Source of the DNA: Daphnia pulex
Taxonomy: Eukaryota; Arthropoda; Branchiopoda; Diplostraca; Daphniidae
Direction of reading: 5' to 3'
Assembly (NCBI RefSeq): GCF_021134715.1
Contig: NC_060023.1
Location: 10,788,001 to 10,852,000 of the forward strand
DNA: 64,000 bases
Below are positions 4,582 to 46,958 of this stretch, one piece after another (position 1 is the stretch's first letter; the number at the start of each line of letters is the position of its first letter). The notes under the pieces were generated by a model. The model was given only the letters and a program-made list of their open reading frames with translations, had not been told where the DNA came from and ran no database searches. Position numbers and translations under genes: made by a program.

Positions 4582-7500
4582 TTAACCAAAGAGATTCAAC
4601 AAGTTGGGCAGTAAACGAGCGCCTCGCTGCGGTTGACGAGGTGGCGGTCCACCTTGCTGTTGTTGAGGGGGTCGTTGCGGCGCAGGTTGAGCCGGTGGAG
4701 GAGCCGGTGCGGCCGGAGCGGGATTGACGAGGAAAGCGCATTGAACGCGGCAGACGCTGTCGGCCAGGATGGCATCCCGACCAACATCGGTGAGCAGCTG
4801 CTGGCAGTTGACTCGCAGCGACTGACACTGCGGCTGTAGAATTAAAAGAAAATTAGAAAATCATCGACTAAAACTGAGTTATTGTTGTATCTTAGACTCA
4901 CTCCTTCAGCTGTGCAGGTACAAGATGTACAGGGAGAAACGAGCGACGAGGCTCCCAGGGCGATGGTTTTGCCCAGGACGACGCAATTGGCACTTTCCTG
5001 CTCGCGCCACGGAGTCAAGTCGAGCGGCGGCAGGGAACGGCACGGCACCCGAGGATTCAGGAAATTGTGCGGCAGGTCGAAAACGGAGCGCGTCACCTCG
5101 CCGATCGTGTCGGAATTCTCGCAGAGAAGACGGGCCAAAGCCACTTTGCGAATTTCGGCCAATTGAGCCTCAGTGAAGCGGCCGGCTTGATTGCCGTTCT
5201 CGTACCAGAACCGATCGCAGCGTCTGCAAATGAAATCAAATGGAAAATGTTTAGATTTTACAGAACAAATTTGTGAATTCCATCCAATTTTTGGTTACCT
5301 CAAACTTCGGAATTGGTTGCCGATGACGCAGGCAAAAGTGGGTCCGACCAAACCGCCCTGGAGCGGAGTCTCGGTCAAACCGCCCGTCCACAAATCAATG
5401 TCGTCGACCGAGGCGTAAACTTGTTTGAGTCGCTCAATGACTTGGGCCGTCATCTCGCGGCTCAGGTCTTCGAAGGTGGTGGCCCGTTTCAGGTTGCAAG
5501 CGGCCCGGTATTCGTTGTAGGGACGGAGGCCGTGATCTCGGCCGCGCTGGATGTTGAGGGCCGCCAGATCGAAACCGGAGAAAGGCACCGTCTTAGCCTC
5601 GAACAGGTGATTGGTGATCTCGCCCGTCACGAACTGATCTAGGTTCTCCATGGGCGAGACGAAAAGGCCTCGAACCAACTCGTCGATGGCCTGCACCTCC
5701 ATCAGCATTTCAGAGTTGAAGAAACCGGCACGCAAAAGGATTGGCGTTTTCTCCTGGATAATTTGGCAAACGAAAAATGTTGTAACTCTGACCACTTGAC
5801 CAGAAAATGAAATTAAAGTTTCAACTACAAAAACGAAATTTGACCAGGGTGTAAAACAAAAAACAAAAAAGAGAAAACTGCCGCAAGGAAACATTAGCAT
5901 ATCGCTAACTGTACACGTAACGAAGAAAACGGGCTGACTGGATAGTCCAGGAAAGAAAATCCAGTCACTCTCTTTTAAATGCAAGTCAAAACATTTTGGG
6001 GGGGAAAGTTTTTTTAGTTTCTTCTCCCTTTCCCTGTCACTGATTTAGTAATATGCTCGTAACAGTAGGTAAAGTGAGTTTCCCTTTCGTTGGATAGAGA
6101 AAGGAAAACCTGTACACTTTTGGCCGTTTCCCATGGCTGTCGTATTATTCAGTGCTAAACGGGGTGATAAAAAACTAGCAATCGGCTGGTCGACTTTGAT
6201 GGTGGAAACTCATTTTTAAAAGAAAAAGTTTTCCATCTACATGTGTGAATTCCGGCGTACAGTACCTGGAAGGAGGCGTCGACTCGTGGGAAAAAGGGGC
6301 GGACCAACGAGTGGCCGAAACGGTAGGCGGCCGTGGAGAACTCGTTGAAGATTCCGGCGTTGCAGTTGGAATCGTATCCTTCGTAGAATCCTTCCGTCAG
6401 CAGGTTGAGGCCGTAGAGGTTGATGGCGTTCCAGCCGAGGACTCGCGGAAGGTACTCGTTGTAAATGACGTGCTGCCAGATGGCGCCGGTAATCTTCCGG
6501 CTCGTCATGTACAGCCGCTCGTCGTCCCACTGGCGATTGAAAGTCTGAAGCTGGCCGGCGATCCGGTTGTGTTCTCGCACCATGACCGTGTGCAGGACGC
6601 TCAGGCCGGGATTCTCGGTGGCTCGCGAGTCGCCAGCGTCAAAACACAGGCCGGAAGCCGCTTGACATTCGGCCAGTCGACTCGTTTGGGGTAGCAAATC
6701 CCTGCCGCGGAACGGGGAGATGGTGATGTTCATCCGGCCGCCACTGAAGGCCCGGAGTCGCTGCGACTCGCAGGGGGTCTGTCCGTAAACGTGGGACAAG
6801 TCAAGGTAGGCCGTGTTCATGTCCATCTGTTCCCGGGCTCCCAATCGCTGCTGACCGGGCAAGGATCGCGTAAAGGACATGCAAACTGGCCGACCCGTCT
6901 GCAGGTTGACTTTGGGGAAGAAGGGATCGTTGCTGGGAATTGGAATGGGCCAGCATTCGGGGTGGACGTTGGTGGGCGAGTCGCAGTCGCGGCAATTCAA
7001 AATGGCGTCCTGGAATCCACGGGAAATGGGCGTCAGGCTGACGTCGTGGTCGAGGAACTGGCCAAAGTAGGTCAGCATCATCGTGTAGCGTCGGTGCATG
7101 TTGCTGACGTCCTGGTGGACCACGACGGAGATGAGACGGGGCGACGGGAGCGGTTGGTTAGTGACTGAACGCCAGCGCGGTCGGGCGATCCCGTCGTCGT
7201 AGCCGGCGGCCAGGAGACGGTTGAAAGGCGTCAGTGTCTTGCCGAACGTCGGATTGCGCAAATTGTTACACCATCCTCCGAATTTGCGGAACGGCGACGT
7301 GTTGTCGCACGGAAGGGTCTCCTCGTTGTTGCGGCAAACGTTGGGAGCAGCGGCCGGCTGGACGAAACGGGTCACGTCGACGTTGTTGAGTCCCTGCGAC
7401 AGTGGGCGAGTCAGCCGTCCGAACAAATTGCCCAGCAATCCATTCAACTGTCTCTTGACACGACCATATTTCGGCCTGGAACATAAAACGACATTATGAA

Positions 7501-10500
7501 AATTTGATGAAAAGAAATGATGTTTAGTGTGGGGTAAATTTACTGTTCCAGGTGGTTGATGAATTCTTCGGATGCGTATTCCAGCAGGAGCGACGTGTTT
7601 GACATGAAAATGGCGGCAGGACTGGCCCGGCTGAAAGCGGAAGCGATTCCCAGTGGAGATTTCGGATTGGCTCCTTTATCTGCAAAGATTTCCACATGAG
7701 ATTGAAATGAGTTGATTTTTATGATTATTAAAATAAAAAGGGCTAGTCATTACTGGTTTGGAAAAGAAGTTTTTCATTCTCTCGACGCAGGGAAATGTCG
7801 ATCAAAGCGCGCTGGATCGATTGACGGAGCAGATCGTCCGGTACTTGCATGGCAGGTGAATCGCTTACCCACGGGCTCAGTTCGATATCGACCATCATAT
7901 CGCAAGGGATCGGTGAATTCCTATCAAACAATAAAACAATTAAATCAAATTTATCAAACGGACATTTGTCTGAAATAATCCAATCAACTTACAAGAAATT
8001 ATCTCTTTCGTGGAAAACTTTCGGCGACATGGATTTGATCATTTCGAAATTCTGGCAGATGATGCCGGCCAGGCTGGTCTTGCGAATTTCCTGCAATTGC
8101 TCTGTCGATCGAAAATTTGTAAAATTTAGTTAAATTGAAATTTGTCCCTGCCAGGATTTGACAAATTTACCTCGAGAAAAGGATGAAGGTGGGACGTCGT
8201 TCTCGTACCAGAAGCGATCGGATTTCCTGAGCAACGAGAACTGATGGGCCAGGATGCAGCCGATGGTCGGGCCGACGACGGCGCCTTTGAGCGGAGTCTC
8301 TGCCAGCCCACCGGTGAACAGATCGATGTCACTGACGTGGCTGTAGACGCTGGCCAGGAGGACGATGTTGGTGGAAGAGACGATGTCGCTCAAGTCGGTG
8401 AAATTGCGGATGGGAGACAATCCGCAGAACTGGCGCCAAGCCGTGTAGCCGGGAAGGCCGTGATCGCGACCCCTCATCAGGATCTCGACGACTTTGTCCA
8501 TTCCGTTGGTGGAGCGGCGGACGTCCTTGGCGATGTGAAGACTCACCCGCCGGCTCATGGTGCTGACCAATCCGTAAAGGAGTTCTTCAGCCTGCTGGGC
8601 GTTGAGGTGGCCGGTGGCGTTGGTGGCCATCTCTCCAGACTTATCGCCCGTCTACATTTCAACCGACGAAACCAAATTTCAACATTTAATAGTCGGCCCA
8701 TCCCGTCTGCGGTAATTAGCAAATGAGAATGAACTTACCATGGTGAATGTTTCGAATTTGGCCGGAAGCATGGCCAGGGAGAAAGAGAGAGCGGCCGAAG
8801 CGGCGGCCTCCAGGCTGCCTGGATAGGCGTCGCTGTCGTAACCGAGGAAATGTCCAGCCAATTTGGGCGTGAGCTTCAGGTTCTCTGCCAAGTTCTCGCC
8901 CAGCACAGCGGGCAGGAACTCGCGGTAGGTCACGTGCTGGATCTGGGCCGTCACCAGACGCCTCGTCTCCTGGTACAGCGTCTCGTCGTCCCACATGGCG
9001 TTGACCCGGGCCAGTTTGGTGGCCAGCCGGTTGTGCTGGCGGACAAAGAGCGTGTGGAGGACCATCAAGGCCGGACTCTCGTTGACTCTGGCGTCGCCCG
9101 ACTCGACGCAATCGCTGGCGTTTCCGTTGCTGTTGGACAAATCGCAACTGTGGTCCACCGGCAGCAAATCGCCAAAGCTCGTCCGCATCAATCCGCCCTC
9201 GAAGGTCCGCAATTGATTGGCCGCGTCCAGGCTGTTGCCGTAGATGGTGGAGGCGTCCAGGAAAGCCGTGGCTCCGTTCATTTGCTCTCGGGCTCCCAAT
9301 TCGCATTTCCTGTTCAAGACGGCCACCGTTCGCGAGTAGGACGTGCATTTATTTTCTTCGTGAGTCGAAATGCAGGTGGCCGTGTTGGTTTCCGTCCCGG
9401 AGCAACACTGCCCTTCCACGCCCAGGTCTGTTGATTTAAAACAAATAAATGTTTAGCTGAAATCCTTGCGCTTTTGAATGGGATCAAATTGAAACTTACC
9501 GACATAAGAAACGGGCCTGGAAATGTCGTTTTGAACGAATTCAGCCCAGACGCCGGACAAAGTGGTGAGGTAGCCATTGCTGGTCTTTTTCGGGGCGTGA
9601 ATGGTGTCGGCAATTTTCACTGGACTCGGCAAGGGTTTGCCAGTAACGGCCAGTCTGACTTGACTGATCCCTGTGAAATTGGAATGATAAAAATTTAGTC
9701 AATCAATTCGGAACTTTTGACTAGGACTGGACACCCTACCATCACTGTAAGACGACGAGACGAGTCTGCCGTAAGTCGAGTCTGAACTGCCCCAGGTTGG
9801 ATTCTGCACGTTGTTGCAGAAGGCGGACGCGTGACGGAACTTTTGGGGTTGGCAGGTGTGCGTCTTCTTCTCGGGACAAGACTCCGACAGTTGGGTACCG
9901 GCCAGCTGGGTGCCACCCAATCGTTTGCGGATATCGGCCGAACTCACCGACCAGCTGAATGTCAAATAAAAACAAGAAAAAAATAAATAAACGAATCAAT
10001 CAAAAAAAGATGGAAAAACCACGAACAAGTAAAAAGTGAAAATAAAAGTTATTTTTGCGGAGTAGAGAAGCGGGTCATATTACTACAATGAATAACGGAA
10101 TAATGTAAAGAAACAAGAGACTTTCACTTCCAGGGCAATAACAAATTTCCACTGGCCCGCCACTAGCCCATTATACCAATGTTACGCATGCAACATTCCG
10201 GCTCTGTTACACTGCCGAGCCAGTTGAGCAACCGGCGGCCAAAAAAGATTATACCACGTCATTTTGGCAAGGAATAGAATGTCTGGTTCAAACTACAAAT
10301 ATCGGCGGAATTGATTTTTTTTTTCCCCAATAGATTCACGTGTCCCTTTTCAATTGGACAACAATAACCCGACGTCCGCCCCAAATTTGTTTGTGGGATT
10401 TCTACCCTTGTGTAGGAGGGGCGCGAGATTTGAATCGAAATTCTTGTTTACCTTTGTGCTAGGATGCGAATGACTTCTTCGGCGACCAGCGCCGCTGCGG

Positions 10501-42643: not shown

Positions 42644-43185
42644 TCCAGTTCAAATGGGATGAATTGGCCAAGTGCAGAATCGAAACAGTTGTCTCCCACG
42701 CAAAGTGCAGACAACCCCAGCAAGAGGAAAATGTTTTCCATCAGTTCGCTAGGAAAATATTGCCTAATCAAACACGGAACTGAAACATCTGTGGCTGAGC
42801 AATCGTTTGATCAAGTGCATAGTTGACTAAAAAAAAGGCTGCACGAAATCGACTTGCGCTGCTGTGAAAATTTACTTTGAATATCAGCTGACAGATGTTT
42901 CCAGCGTTAACTCGTGTTAATAACCTGAGGGGGAATTTGTAATGGAATATTGAACAAGATTCTTCCACTCTATGAACGGACAGTTGGGAGCAGCTTTACG
43001 GCAACACGGTCTTCTACTATAGAGAATTTTTAATCGTTCGCAATGATGGAAACAAACAAAACTATACATTCCCAAATTAACAAGACTACCTGAAAGGGGG
43101 TAGTAATTGGAAAATATTAATCTTATCTTCCTCTTAAGTCTAACACAGGATATGACGCAGTGTCTGATTTTTGCCTGGTGTATTA

Positions 43186-43209
43186 GTGAGATAAGCGGTT
43201 AGCATTATC
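43186..43209. repeat. 24-bp block conserved downstream of both SleB-like genes, copy 1
   Basis: Begins GTGAGATAAGCGGTTAGC and is identical to 44803-44826. It sits 81 bp beyond the SleB copy 1 stop, matching the 87 bp offset in copy 2. It is either duplicated 3' UTR or a retained GATAAG-bearing control element. Confidence 0.75.
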
Positions 43210-43289
43210 AACGGGGTACTACATCATATTTCGCAACTTGCACATATGAATTAATAGCAAGACTACATTAAATGTTGAAAATTCTTTCT

Positions 43290-43703
43290 TCATTTGCTTT
43301 TATAAAATTGGTGATTGCCAATTTTCTGAAGAAAGTTACAGTTTTGGGTCCAAGGCGGGTAACCTTCTTTATCAGGATTGTTGTAATGATCTGCTCCTCC
43401 GCTCGGATCAGAGCCTTGAAAAACCGTTGGAAGCCAAGCGTCAATTGCAGCATAGGCACCGGGCTCCATGCGAATCCCCTCCTCAATCAGATGACGTCTA
43501 TCGGCGTTCCAGCACTCGAATTGATCGAGATAAAGACAAACGCCTCTGATGGTGTTACCTCCCCAGTATGAACGGTTAAGATCAGCCCGGGTTTTAATTA
43601 CCCAGGCAACTGCTTTCTGACCAATTAGCGGCTCTGCCCTACACTCAGCAAAGATCGTCTTTTTCAAGACCTGGTAGTCTTCGGATTGTTTGTTAAGAGC
43701 CAT
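43290..43703 (-). CDS. SleB-like cell wall hydrolase (Hydrolase_2 family), copy 1; probable bacterial origin
   Basis: A single coding exon, 137 residues, starting MALNKQ. It matches the bacterial/phage SleB-type cell-wall hydrolase pattern along its length: IFAECRAEP with Glu20 at the catalytic glutamate position, GQKAVAWVIKTRADL, QFECWN, DPSGGADHYNNP and the terminal IGNHQFY. These enzymes act as lytic transglycosylases or amidases on peptidoglycan. There is no signal peptide, transmembrane segment or spore-cortex binding domain, so it would be cytosolic unless released another way. A TATA box at 43885-43892, a probable untranslated first exon ending at 43814 (before GTAAGTG) and an acceptor at 43707 show a eukaryotic transcription unit. 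It is 77 % identical to copy 2 (31 differences in 137, no gaps). The family Gly after the motif Arg is Ala here (CRAEP). Confidence 0.85.
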   Translation of the reverse strand: MALNKQSEDYQVLKKTIFAECRAEPLIGQKAVAWVIKTRADLNRSYWGGNTIRGVCLYLDQFECWNADRRHLIEEGIRMEPGAYAAIDAWLPTVFQGSDPSGGADHYNNPDKEGYPPWTQNCNFLQKIGNHQFYKSK

Positions 43704-43884
43704 TTTCTTTATTTAAAAAATAATAATAAATAAAATTAAAAAATAAATAAACGAAAAAGAGGAAAGGGCGGCCAATGAAAGTAGTACTGTAAATGAGTAA
43801 ACATTTCACTTACATATTTTGGTTCTGTCGAGCTACGTAAAAATGGAAGACCTGCAAGTAACTTGTCTCTAATACAGTCGCTCA

Positions 43885-43892
43885 GTTTTATA
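43885..43892 (-). promoter_or_regulatory. TATA box of SleB-like copy 1
   Basis: TATAAAAC on the minus strand. A start near 43860 would give a roughly 45-nt untranslated exon ending at the GTAAGTG donor at 43813. Confidence 0.5.
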
Positions 43893-43903
43893 CCATTTAT
43901 CTA

Positions 43904-44802
43904 CCTACCTATCTACCCTAATTTTTCGGTAGAACTTGCACGTAGAAAGTGTTTTCTTATCTGTCGTTAAATCATTTCGAAGAAAAACAGTTCATTATCT
44001 TTGAGAAGTACCCGAATTAACTTTACGAATTCAAAGGCGTTACATTTTTGTGAAGTTTTCCATGTCAAACTTATTTTTCATCATACAACATTGTAAATAA
44101 ACGATGGCAAGAATTGTTGGGAACATTTAAAAATGTCTTCCGTGTTGTCCCGTCTACTTTTGCACCAGTTCGTTTGCATTACAATAAAGTTGAGAAATAT
44201 AGTTTTAACACATTATATTAATTCTGCTGTCGTTGCTTTGCTACTTAAATAATTAATAATACAAACTAGAAAGTACCTAACAAAGGAAATATGGTACAAC
44301 AACTAACGAAATCTTATCTCATCCAACGAAGTTTTAGCCATTTGTCTACACGAGGCAATTACGGTCTTTTTTTTAAAAAATTACAAGGGAAGGGAAAAGG
44401 TTTCGTGCCTAGACATGTCACTGTTTACTAAATGATTCCCTCAGATACGTCACGTCTCACATCTACCGACATTCTTGACTTTCGTTAATGGCGCTGAATC
44501 GCAACATGTTCTTCTCCTGCAGTCAATTGTTTTGGTCGAGAATGGTAGCAACAAACAAAACTTTACCCGCGTTTGGTTAGGCTAATACGTATGCCGGTTG
44601 CGGTGGTAAGTGGAAAGAAGTCGGTATAGATTACAGTCCGCATATTAGTTTCTTGATTTACATGATGTATGAAGGAGTAACTGCGAAAGTTTCAACAGTG
44701 CAATAACATTATCAACTTGCATTGTCTTAATAGTCTCGACTTTAAATCTGAAACAAGATTTAAAGCAACGTTCATGCTTGATTATTGCTTGGTGTTTGTA
44801 TT
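43904..44802. other. Spacer between the two SleB-like genes
   Basis: About 0.9 kb of AT-rich DNA. A stretch near 44500-44590 resembles 43000-43075 (shared ACAAACAAAACT... words), consistent with one tandem duplication unit that includes gene plus downstream flank. No other gene was seen. A 15-bp match to lectin exon 6 (CGACATTCTTGACTT, about 44467) may be chance or a relic. Confidence 0.4.
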
Positions 44803-44826
44803 GTGAGATAAGCGGTTAGCATTATC
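44803..44826. repeat. 24-bp block conserved downstream of both SleB-like genes, copy 2
   Basis: Identical to 43186-43209, lying 87 bp past the SleB copy 2 stop. It contains GATAAG. Confidence 0.75.
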
Positions 44827-44912
44827 GTCAGGCCACATCATATTCCAAAAGGAACTACACATTTTTTTTACGTATTTAGTACGATAGTAAATTTCTAAAT
44901 TTTGAAAAAAAT

Positions 44913-45326
44913 TCATTTACCTCTGTAAAATTGGTGATTGCCAATTTTCTGAAGACGGTAACAGCCGGTGGTCCAGGTCGGGTAACCTTCTATTTCAGGA
45001 TTGATGTAATAGTCAGCTCCTCCGCTCGGATCCAAGCCCAAGTAAACGGTAGGTAGCCAAGCGTCAATTTTAGCATAGACACCGGGCTCATTGCGAATCA
45101 TCTCTTCAATCAAATGACGTCGATCGGCGTTCCAGCACTCGAACTGCCCGGGATGAAGACACACGCCGGCGATGGTGTTACCTCCCCAGTATGAACAGTT
45201 CAGATCGGCCCGGTTTTTAATGACCCAAGCAACTGCTTTCTGACCGAGCACCGGCTCTCCCCTACACTCGGCAAAGATCGTCTTGAGCAAGATCTGGTAG
45301 TCGTCGGATAGTTTGTTAAGTGCCAT
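44913..45326 (-). CDS. SleB-like cell wall hydrolase (Hydrolase_2 family), copy 2; probable bacterial origin
   Basis: An intronless coding exon of 137 residues, starting MALNKLSD just after an acceptor-like TTTTTTCAG (ending 45330), so an upstream untranslated exon is likely. It keeps the full family signature: IFAECRGEP (the canonical GE form, unlike copy 1), GQKAVAWVIKNRADL, QFECWN, DPSGGADYYINP, IGNHQFY. There is no signal peptide. It is in tandem with copy 1 in the same orientation with 1.2 kb between the reading frames, and the downstream flank is shared, so a local duplication is clear. Both copies are open full-length with no indels and many conservative changes, which suggests continuing selection. 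A role in handling bacterial cell walls is inferred from the family. Base composition resembles the neighbouring genes, arguing against contamination. Confidence 0.85.
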   Translation of the reverse strand: MALNKLSDDYQILLKTIFAECRGEPVLGQKAVAWVIKNRADLNCSYWGGNTIAGVCLHPGQFECWNADRRHLIEEMIRNEPGVYAKIDAWLPTVYLGLDPSGGADYYINPEIEGYPTWTTGCYRLQKIGNHQFYRGK

Positions 45327-45699
45327 TTCCTGAAAAAAGGAAAAAAAAAGGATAACGAGATCAAACTATAAAAAGTAAAAATGCATTTAGTTTTTCTATT
45401 TCGATTTTAGGCTTATAGATACGACAGACACCTACGGAAATAAGGTGACCTTATTAGAGATTTGTGTGGATGACAAAGGAGGCAAAAAAGAAAATGGTTC
45501 TGTATCTCAGCTTGTTTAACTGTTGACTCAATTTATCTCGAATTACTCCAGATAAGTAAAATGTCTCCCATCAACTGACATTCTATCTAAAGTCCATCTG
45601 ATAATTTCACAAATTGTGTACTGTTACAGAAAGCTGACTGGCCGCCCATCACTCACTTAATAATACCGATTTCGAAACTAGTCAAACATTCCTCACTTG

Positions 45700-45785: not shown

Positions 45786-46958
45786 ATGCTCAAGATTTTC
45801 GTATTTTGTCTAGTCGTCCTGACTTACTTCAGCAATGGAAATGTTGTTGCACCGCGGAGTAAGTTTATACTTAAATCCTATCCTGAGTAAACTCGAATTA
45901 ACATTCGTATTTCATTCAACAGCTTGTGGGGGTCGAGTATTTGTCGATAAACCGATCGTGATCGACGCCCCAATTCACGACGATTGCATCTGGGAATTTC
46001 AGACAAAAGACGATCGGATTTTGTTATTCACTTTGGTAGATGGAAACTTGAAGGAAACCCAAGAATTTTTCAAGGTAAGCGATCATAAATGGACCCATTT
46101 GTATTACTCTCAAACTAATTACTCGTTTAGATCCACGATGGACTCGACAGTGAGTCTCCGATTCTCCTTGTCGAAAACCAAAAAATTCTCGAACGTTCGA
46201 GAAAAGATTTGCCAGCGTCCGTGTACACGACCCAATCGACAGCCAGCGTTCGATTCACAAAAGCGCCAACTTCAAATCTCAAACTCAAAATTGAAAAGGT
46301 AACATCACCTTCTAATTACATCTTTATTGTGACAGCATTTTATAGTGATTACGTTTGAACTTTGCACAGGCTGTCAATTGCCCAGCAAATGTGGGTGCAC
46401 AGACAGAGTGTGGCCGAATTGTGGATACCACATCCTGTTATTGCGCAGATTTCAATAAGGCAAGGCTTATCATTACACAACAAATCAAATTATACATTGA
46501 TTGAAAAAAGGGACTCATTGTTTGTCAAATTATCTTTATTTTTTTCTCCCTGATGTTTGAGTAGAGGTCTCAAACGGATCAGAAAACCGTGTGTAGCAAT
46601 ATTGGATTCTACATGTTGGCCCTCGAAAGCCGAACTGAAGAAGATCTCATTGCTTTTGCTTGGGGCACTGGTATGTATAGGCACATTCATTCACTTTTCT
46701 CCAGATGTTTTTGTTAAAATGGAAATCGCTTTTCATATACCAGGATTTCAGTTCTGGACATCATTGAGTTACTCTAATGGATACTGGATTTGGGAGAGCA
46801 CCAATGTCCCTATTAACGGTGGATACTTCAACTGGGCCATCGGACAGCCCGACGGATCAGGTAACTGCGTGCATTTAAATGCCATCACCTCCCAAGGCGG
46901 ATGGAACGACGATTCGTGCGCCACTCCACACGAAGCCGTTTGCGAAGGCCAGCCATAA
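45786..46958 (+). CDS. Secreted CUB-domain plus C-type lectin protein, copy 2
   Basis: Six exons: 45786-45858, 45923-46074, 46131-46298, 46370-46459, 46565-46670, 46744-46958. Total 804 nt, 267 residues, with the same exon phases as copy 1. A signal peptide (MLKIFVFCLVVLTYFSNG) leads, then a CUB-like domain (CGGRVFV, CIWEF, FFKIHDGL), a Cys-rich linker (AVNCPAN...CYCADF) and a C-type lectin domain with WIWES, GQPDGSGNCV, WNDDSC and AVCEG. The QPD and WND motifs are kept, so calcium-dependent, galactose-type binding is plausible. Intron 4 starts GCAAGG after AATAAG: a GC-AG intron where copy 1 has GTAAGT. Its signal peptide and VVAPR junction resemble copy 1 closely, showing that the two are paralogues separated by the protease and SleB-like genes. 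Confidence 0.9.

Follow-up and report, generated by a model that had tools for sequence, protein, structure and literature searches.

The window analysed here is a stretch of 64,000 nucleotides from Daphnia pulex (C7:10788001-10852000, contig NC_060023.1), and the assembly searched with it comprises 133,188,837 bases in 13 contigs. It contains two adjacent, intron-free reading frames of 137 codons, designated c1 and c2, both of which are located on the minus strand. The coordinates and reading frames given for the two genes in the original prediction were correct, and the strand can now be added. The features recorded in and around the pair, numbered from the first letter of the window, are:

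43290..43703, minus strand: coding sequence of c1 (copy 1), 137 aa, stop codon included; Hydrolase_2 / SleB-type cell wall hydrolase
43644..43646, minus strand: Glu20 codon of c1, candidate catalytic Glu (invariant column of the 43-row alignment; role by homology only)
43707..43813, minus strand: candidate 5'-UTR intron of c1, GTAAGT...AAG, 107 nt, read from the sequence and not from a transcript
43886..43892, minus strand: TATAAAA upstream of the candidate first exon of c1
44913..45326, minus strand: coding sequence of c2 (copy 2), 137 aa, stop codon included; Hydrolase_2 / SleB-type cell wall hydrolase
45267..45269, minus strand: Glu20 codon of c2, candidate catalytic Glu (alignment with SleB 4f55 and invariant column; role by homology only)
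45330..45350, minus strand: polypyrimidine tract and CAG, candidate acceptor directly upstream of the ATG of c2
43134..43289, no strand assigned: 3' flank of c1 common with c2, part of the duplicated unit (blastn; repeats)
44742..44912, no strand assigned: 3' flank of c2 common with c1 (blastn; repeats)
45786..46955, plus strand: neighbouring divergent host gene, with a probable secretion signal at 45786-45857 (judged by eye) and a C-type lectin domain in the ORF 46557-46955

The two copies are identical at 106 of 137 amino acids and 346 of 414 nucleotides with zero indels, in agreement with the predicted indel-free identity of 77 %. The downstream flank that they were said to share was recovered as well, since blastn aligned 43134-43758 with 44742-45381 at 76%, together with a 68-column piece further 3'. 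According to these limits, the duplicated unit begins about 55 bases before each ATG, so that the 3' flank and the acceptor region are common to the copies; blastn of the pair's region found no upstream promoter homology between c1 and c2. The TATA box and the 5'-UTR intron proposed for c1 can both be read, since TATAAAA occupies 43892-43886 and the GTAAGT at 43813 is a donor that might be joined to a possible AAG acceptor ending at 43707. The candidate acceptor of c2 is strong, with pyrimidines at 18 of 18 positions and then CAG, whose last base, 45330, lies three bases ahead of the ATG. Without splicing, both frames run into an upstream stop (4 and 14 codons).

The absence of a signal peptide is supported by a simple hydrophobicity scan, which was judged by eye rather than with a dedicated predictor and in which none was recognised in the ORFs of c1, c2 and their two readable relatives B1 and B2 (see below). 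In c2, the hydrophobic maximum over 8 residues near the N-terminus (residues 1-30) is 2.08 on the Kyte-Doolittle scale, and the values of c1, B1 and B2 are lower. A hidden exon encoding a signal peptide was also considered and rejected: by eye, none of the 3, 4, 4 and 2 candidate first exons within 900 nt upstream of c2, c1, B1 and B2, respectively, resembled a signal peptide, and the 2.08 stretch of c2 was not read as one.

The neighbouring gene on the plus strand carries a C-type lectin domain (Pfam Lectin_C, 5e-10). Elsewhere in the window, two adjacent pieces of an animal haem peroxidase gene are found on the minus strand at 6158-7447 and 8682-9419 (An_peroxidase, 1.2e-117 and 9.7e-65). 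The original description of the pair as lying between ordinary spliced metazoan genes is partly supported, by the lectin domain at 46557-46955 and the haem peroxidase at about 6.2-9.4 kb; the interval from 9.4 kb to the pair is covered by ORF lists (at least 110 aa from 34 kb on, at least 140 aa over the whole window).

Both proteins match Pfam Hydrolase_2 (PF07486) far beyond chance, c1 with 61.7 bits (1.1e-16) and c2 with 67.7 bits (1.5e-18) at a cut-off of 27 bits. Lysis families are their top matches in PHROGs, among them the phage endolysin family phrog_938 (1.5e-14 and 6.7e-15), and the solved catalytic domain of SleB, 4f55, was matched by the c2 sequence at 3.3e-12 and by a 43-row profile at 1.3e-16. 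The cut-off of the NCBIfam SleB equivalog (TIGR02869) was not reached (51.3 and 57 bits compared with 236.5). A match of c2 to MMACHC (Pfam 0.11, structure search 0.054-0.078) covered a short stretch and was taken as chance.

The 43-row alignment, comprising both window copies and 41 prokaryotic or viral rows, contains ten invariant columns including Glu20 and Arg22, all of which are kept in c1 and c2 (themselves rows). Glu20 is invariant in 43 of 43 rows; its counterpart in the alignment with SleB 4f55 is the Glu of GESRGEP, presumably the essential Glu of SleB. The conserved Glu of the Hydrolase_2 motif GE-x-RGE is present in both copies. The predicted SleB/CwlJ motif list applies to c2 with its AECRGEP, but not in full to c1, where AECRAEP is found. 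Correspondingly, position 23 of c1 is Ala instead of a nearly invariant Gly, and position 106 of c2 is Tyr instead of a nearly invariant His, with Tyr also standing there in SleB 4f55. In SleB, one Glu has been described as essential for the lytic transglycosylase activity (PMC12331253).

Searches of the Daphnia genome itself with PF07486, c2 and B1 revealed at least seven loci of the family, excluding a phage-borne locus on contig C1. Six of the seven are on C7, namely c1, c2 and four loci of an intron-bearing type, and the seventh is an intronless-type pseudogene near C3:7.3577 Mb, which is 69.5-69.7% identical to the pair at the DNA level and contains stops and frame breaks. Among the intron-type loci, B1 (C7, about 0.602 Mb) encodes 157 aa after joining across a GT...AG intron of 83 nt, and in B2 (C7, about 3.413 Mb) a GT...AG intron of 79 nt occupies the corresponding position, behind FECWN-x-G. 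Read from the sequence, both introns are of spliceosomal type. The other two, at about 3.348 Mb and 2.945 Mb on C7, are pseudogenes. B2 has kept the first part of the domain, and an unrelated tail replaces the C-terminal IGNHxFY motif. Moreover, B1 and B2 have Ala in the place of Arg22, so the intron-type branch may be inactive. The family as a whole is thus not strictly kept: Arg22 is lost in B1 and B2, the C-terminal motif is lost in B2, and three of the seven copies are pseudogenes.

The comparison of c1 with c2 according to Nei-Gojobori gave a dN of 0.140, a dS of 0.394 and a dN/dS of 0.355 (bootstrap 0.21-0.61), and values at or above 1 occurred in 0 of 2000 bootstraps. Hence, purifying selection acted on the two copies, as the original prediction of selection after duplication implied. 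The average silent-site divergence between D. pulex and D. obtusa has been given as 0.134 (PMC12926508). The larger dS of the pair indicates that the duplication probably predates the split of these two species. Collectively, the shared intron site, the births and deaths of copies and the selection on the tandem pair mark these sequences as resident animal genes.

Relatives in bacteria and viruses are numerous but distant. Matches at E 1e-5 or better were obtained in 315 phage records, with identities up to 39.4% among the 40 listed. Plasmids contributed 5 records. An alignment-based scan of bacterial genomes gave at least 526 relatives among at least 582 pattern matches, of which 80 were kept, mostly from Pseudomonas, Thalassospira and other proteobacteria; an earlier scan with a single protein as query had yielded 31 stretches and 0 relatives. 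Viral contigs contributed 198 relatives of 247 pattern matches, and again 80 were kept. After six duplicate contigs among 166 had been left out of the counts, 160 distinct loci were compared. The relatives found are 30-41% identical and mostly small proteobacterial and phage endolysin-like proteins. Among the matches listed there was no close prokaryotic or viral relative of the pair, the best identity to c2 being 40.9%. Short ORFs, with 160 aa or fewer, were present at 65 of 80 viral and 55 of 80 bacterial loci; each length was taken from the first start that could apply and is therefore an upper limit. The FECW motif of the Daphnia proteins occurred at 0 of the 160 distinct prokaryotic or viral loci, and the attempt to find a donor by this shared motif was dropped.

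For the tree, 50 representatives (22 bacterial, 28 viral) were chosen from the 166 rows by removing rows under 110 aa and then requiring less than 72% mutual identity, and the four Daphnia proteins and SleB were added. The four readable Daphnia copies (c1, c2, B1, B2) form one clade with a support of 100/99, good evidence for a single origin of the readable copies within this genome. A stem with 1.62 changes per column leads to this clade, the surrounding rows are mainly proteobacterial and viral, and bacterial and viral rows are interleaved. When three long rows were removed, the clade still had a support of 100/99 and the nearest row was a different one; an arrangement joining Daphnia with SleB could not be rejected in this tree (p-AU 0.283). 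The bootstrap was unsettled in both runs. Neither tree contained a supported sister of the Daphnia clade, nor any supported set beyond the four Daphnia rows among sets up to half of the rows, and the search for a donor by tree was likewise given up. Without a supported sister and with the SleB grouping not rejected, the tree fixes neither the donor nor its phylum.

The pair belongs to a kind of gene that has already been published. Li et al. 2021 (BMC Biol 19:7; PMC7807722) described Hydrolase_2 genes of transferred origin, named cwh, from Daphnia magna, ladybirds, a tardigrade and two springtails, and subjected those of ladybirds to antibacterial tests. Presence was patchy, with potential members in 55 of 1370 ecdysozoan genomes, and the animal cwh group was monophyletic inside a mainly proteobacterial group. 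The BLAST matches in that study included two water fleas, hence the gene of the present species may already be among them. The pair resembles the animal cwh genes in the Hydrolase_2 domain, the small size and the eukaryotic flanking genes, D. magna being a known carrier, and the ladybird genes are under negative selection as is the pair (PMC7807722). The non-ladybird members have been reported to have no signal peptide and to differ in splice sites or to be intron-free (PMC7807722), and in our scan by eye the pair had no recognisable signal peptide either. Introns, a eukaryotic neighbour and several host copies, by which residency of cwh genes in an animal can be judged, were all found here. 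In contrast, the tandem pair, the occurrence of intronless and intron-bearing branches in one genome and the water-flea pseudogenes are not described in the accessible text of that article (PMC7807722). Further reports on Daphnia concern other transferred genes (PMC3482391) and gene fusions with transferred parts, where cell wall hydrolase, Hydrolase_2, SleB and peptidoglycan are unmentioned in the accessible text (PMC13389597). No report of the tandem pair, the two gene types or the pseudogenes was found in the open-licence literature, supplements aside.

Two other groups of enzymes invite comparison. The phage Hydrolase_2 endolysins, such as the Pseudomonas phage PAJU2 endolysin and phrog_938, share the domain, with 39.4% identity over 90% of c2, and many of these relatives are bare domains of similar length. 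Such phage enzymes attack the bacterium from within, in the last phase of an infection. The water-flea gene, in contrast, sits in an animal chromosome, and FSCWN of the phage proteins is replaced by FECWN in Daphnia, where the following loop is three columns shorter. The Bacillus spore-cortex enzymes SleB and CwlJ (4f55, 4fet) have the catalytic domain and the aligned Glu in common with the pair, and CwlJ is also a single-domain protein (PMC12331253). However, the pair scores far below the NCBIfam SleB cut-off, and a peptidoglycan-binding domain is absent from it.

Regarding function, each copy encodes one bare SleB/CwlJ-type catalytic domain without a recognisable signal peptide. By homology, Glu20 would cut the MurNAc-GlcNAc glycosidic bond (N-acetylmuramic acid/N-acetylglucosamine) in peptidoglycan, i.e. 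the proteins would act as lytic transglycosylases. The signal-peptide-less ladybird cwh1 is induced by infection with Bacillus subtilis, and the recombinant protein limits B. subtilis, not E. coli (PMC7807722). In analogy to cwh1, a cytosolic wall-cutting enzyme could act inside host cells on bacteria that were engulfed or that invade, and could also reach gut bacteria; alternatively, it might be set free when gut or blood cells are damaged and act then. In the absence of a signal peptide, contact with bacteria requires an extra assumption. An antibacterial effector would be the most likely role on this analogy, and we infer the enzymatic activity and the place of action in the same manner, from homology and from the ladybird example. 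It is quite unlikely that the two proteins are no longer enzymes and have become peptidoglycan binders or taken up another role. Such a change might be read from the alterations at nearly invariant sites (Ala23 in c1, Tyr106 in c2) and from B1 and B2, the relatives that no longer have Arg22, but Glu20, Arg22 and the other invariant columns are kept in c1 and c2 and the pair has been under purifying selection.

A separate observation concerns contig C1 of the same assembly. From about 1,059,400 (edge by eye) to at least 1,218,000, more than 158 kb with T4-like tailed-phage genes lie in this animal chromosome contig. The stretch has many minus-strand ORFs without visible introns, and the ORF density dips at 1.118-1.128 Mb. 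Among the ORFs tested were T4-like baseplate wedge gp25 and gp6, a phage DNA polymerase in two pieces, ribonucleotide reductase, bilin reductase and heme oxygenase, as well as CHASE2 and a weak curlin repeat, both atypical of phages; its own Hydrolase_2 gene is at C1:1073977-1074312. Three pieces, 5.9 kb in total, are 96.4, 97.8 and 98.6% identical to one IMG/VR contig, and megablast of 9.9 kb gave no match to named phages. The open-licence literature searched yielded nothing on phage contamination. The high likeness to an environmental phage suggests contaminating sequence over an old insertion, hence the stretch is most likely assembly contamination and possibly a recent insertion. Beside it, at about 1,055,222-1,059,364, retroelement-like ORFs with reverse transcriptase and recombinase were read by eye.

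With regard to the origin of the pair, we consider it probable that an old transfer from a bacterium or phage into a water-flea ancestor was followed by duplication in the host and gave rise to a signal-peptide-less antibacterial peptidoglycan lytic transglycosylase. The horizontal origin and domestication suggested originally are consistent with the bacterial and phage family, the host copies with a common intron site, the pseudogenes, the dN/dS below 1 and the finding of no close relative among the prokaryotic and viral matches. Instead of the wide, vertically congruent distribution that had been named as counter-evidence, the published distribution is patchy and the gene tree departs from the host tree (PMC7807722). 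The phage stretch on contig C1, with a Hydrolase_2 gene of its own, could be taken to indicate that the pair, too, is bacterial or phage contamination or part of a chimeric assembly. Yet some relatives of the pair bear introns, siblings on two contigs have become pseudogenes, a lectin gene adjoins the pair, identity peaks at 41% over all loci found, and the Hydrolase_2 gene of contig C1 is absent from the seven own-genome matches of c2 (E up to 1). This explanation was rejected for the pair, its probability being negligible, and the earlier preference for integration over contamination is upheld.

Within the favoured transfer, the wording "bacterial or phage" cannot be narrowed with the present data. 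It is conceivable, although we do not expect it, that the donor was a tailed phage, in which case the animal would have domesticated an endolysin and not a hydrolase from a bacterial chromosome. The lead of lysis families in PHROGs, the 315 phage records and the bare short ORFs, which have the same make-up as the pair and are found at most viral and bacterial loci compared, would fit such a donor; against it stand the interleaving of bacterial and viral rows, the long Daphnia stem without supported sister and the lack of FECW at 160 of 160 distinct loci. A more elaborate version, in which a tailed-phage endolysin passed straight into the crustacean genome, became a signal-peptide-less intracellular antibacterial enzyme and expanded into a family of two branches, where genes died repeatedly and selection maintained the branch of the intronless tandem pair, seems improbable to us. 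One ancient transfer into the ecdysozoan ancestor with retention in water fleas and loss in most lineages, as opposed to a separate branchiopod transfer, is somewhat doubtful. It is a scenario listed by Li et al., whose animal cwh proteins are monophyletic (UFBoot 97), and the large divergence of the Daphnia proteins from the prokaryotic and viral relatives found would agree with it, but gene tree and host tree disagree, matches are confined to 55 of 1370 ecdysozoan genomes, and the splice sites differ between groups (PMC7807722).

Regardless of the donor, the tandem pair and the seven-locus family with its births and deaths enlarge the small set of bacterial wall-cutting enzymes acquired by animals. 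Expression, infection and gene removal are all open to experiment in water fleas, which are kept as laboratory animals. Furthermore, the branchiopod genes and their intron sites bear on the question raised by Li et al. whether one old transfer or several brought cwh genes into animals (PMC7807722).
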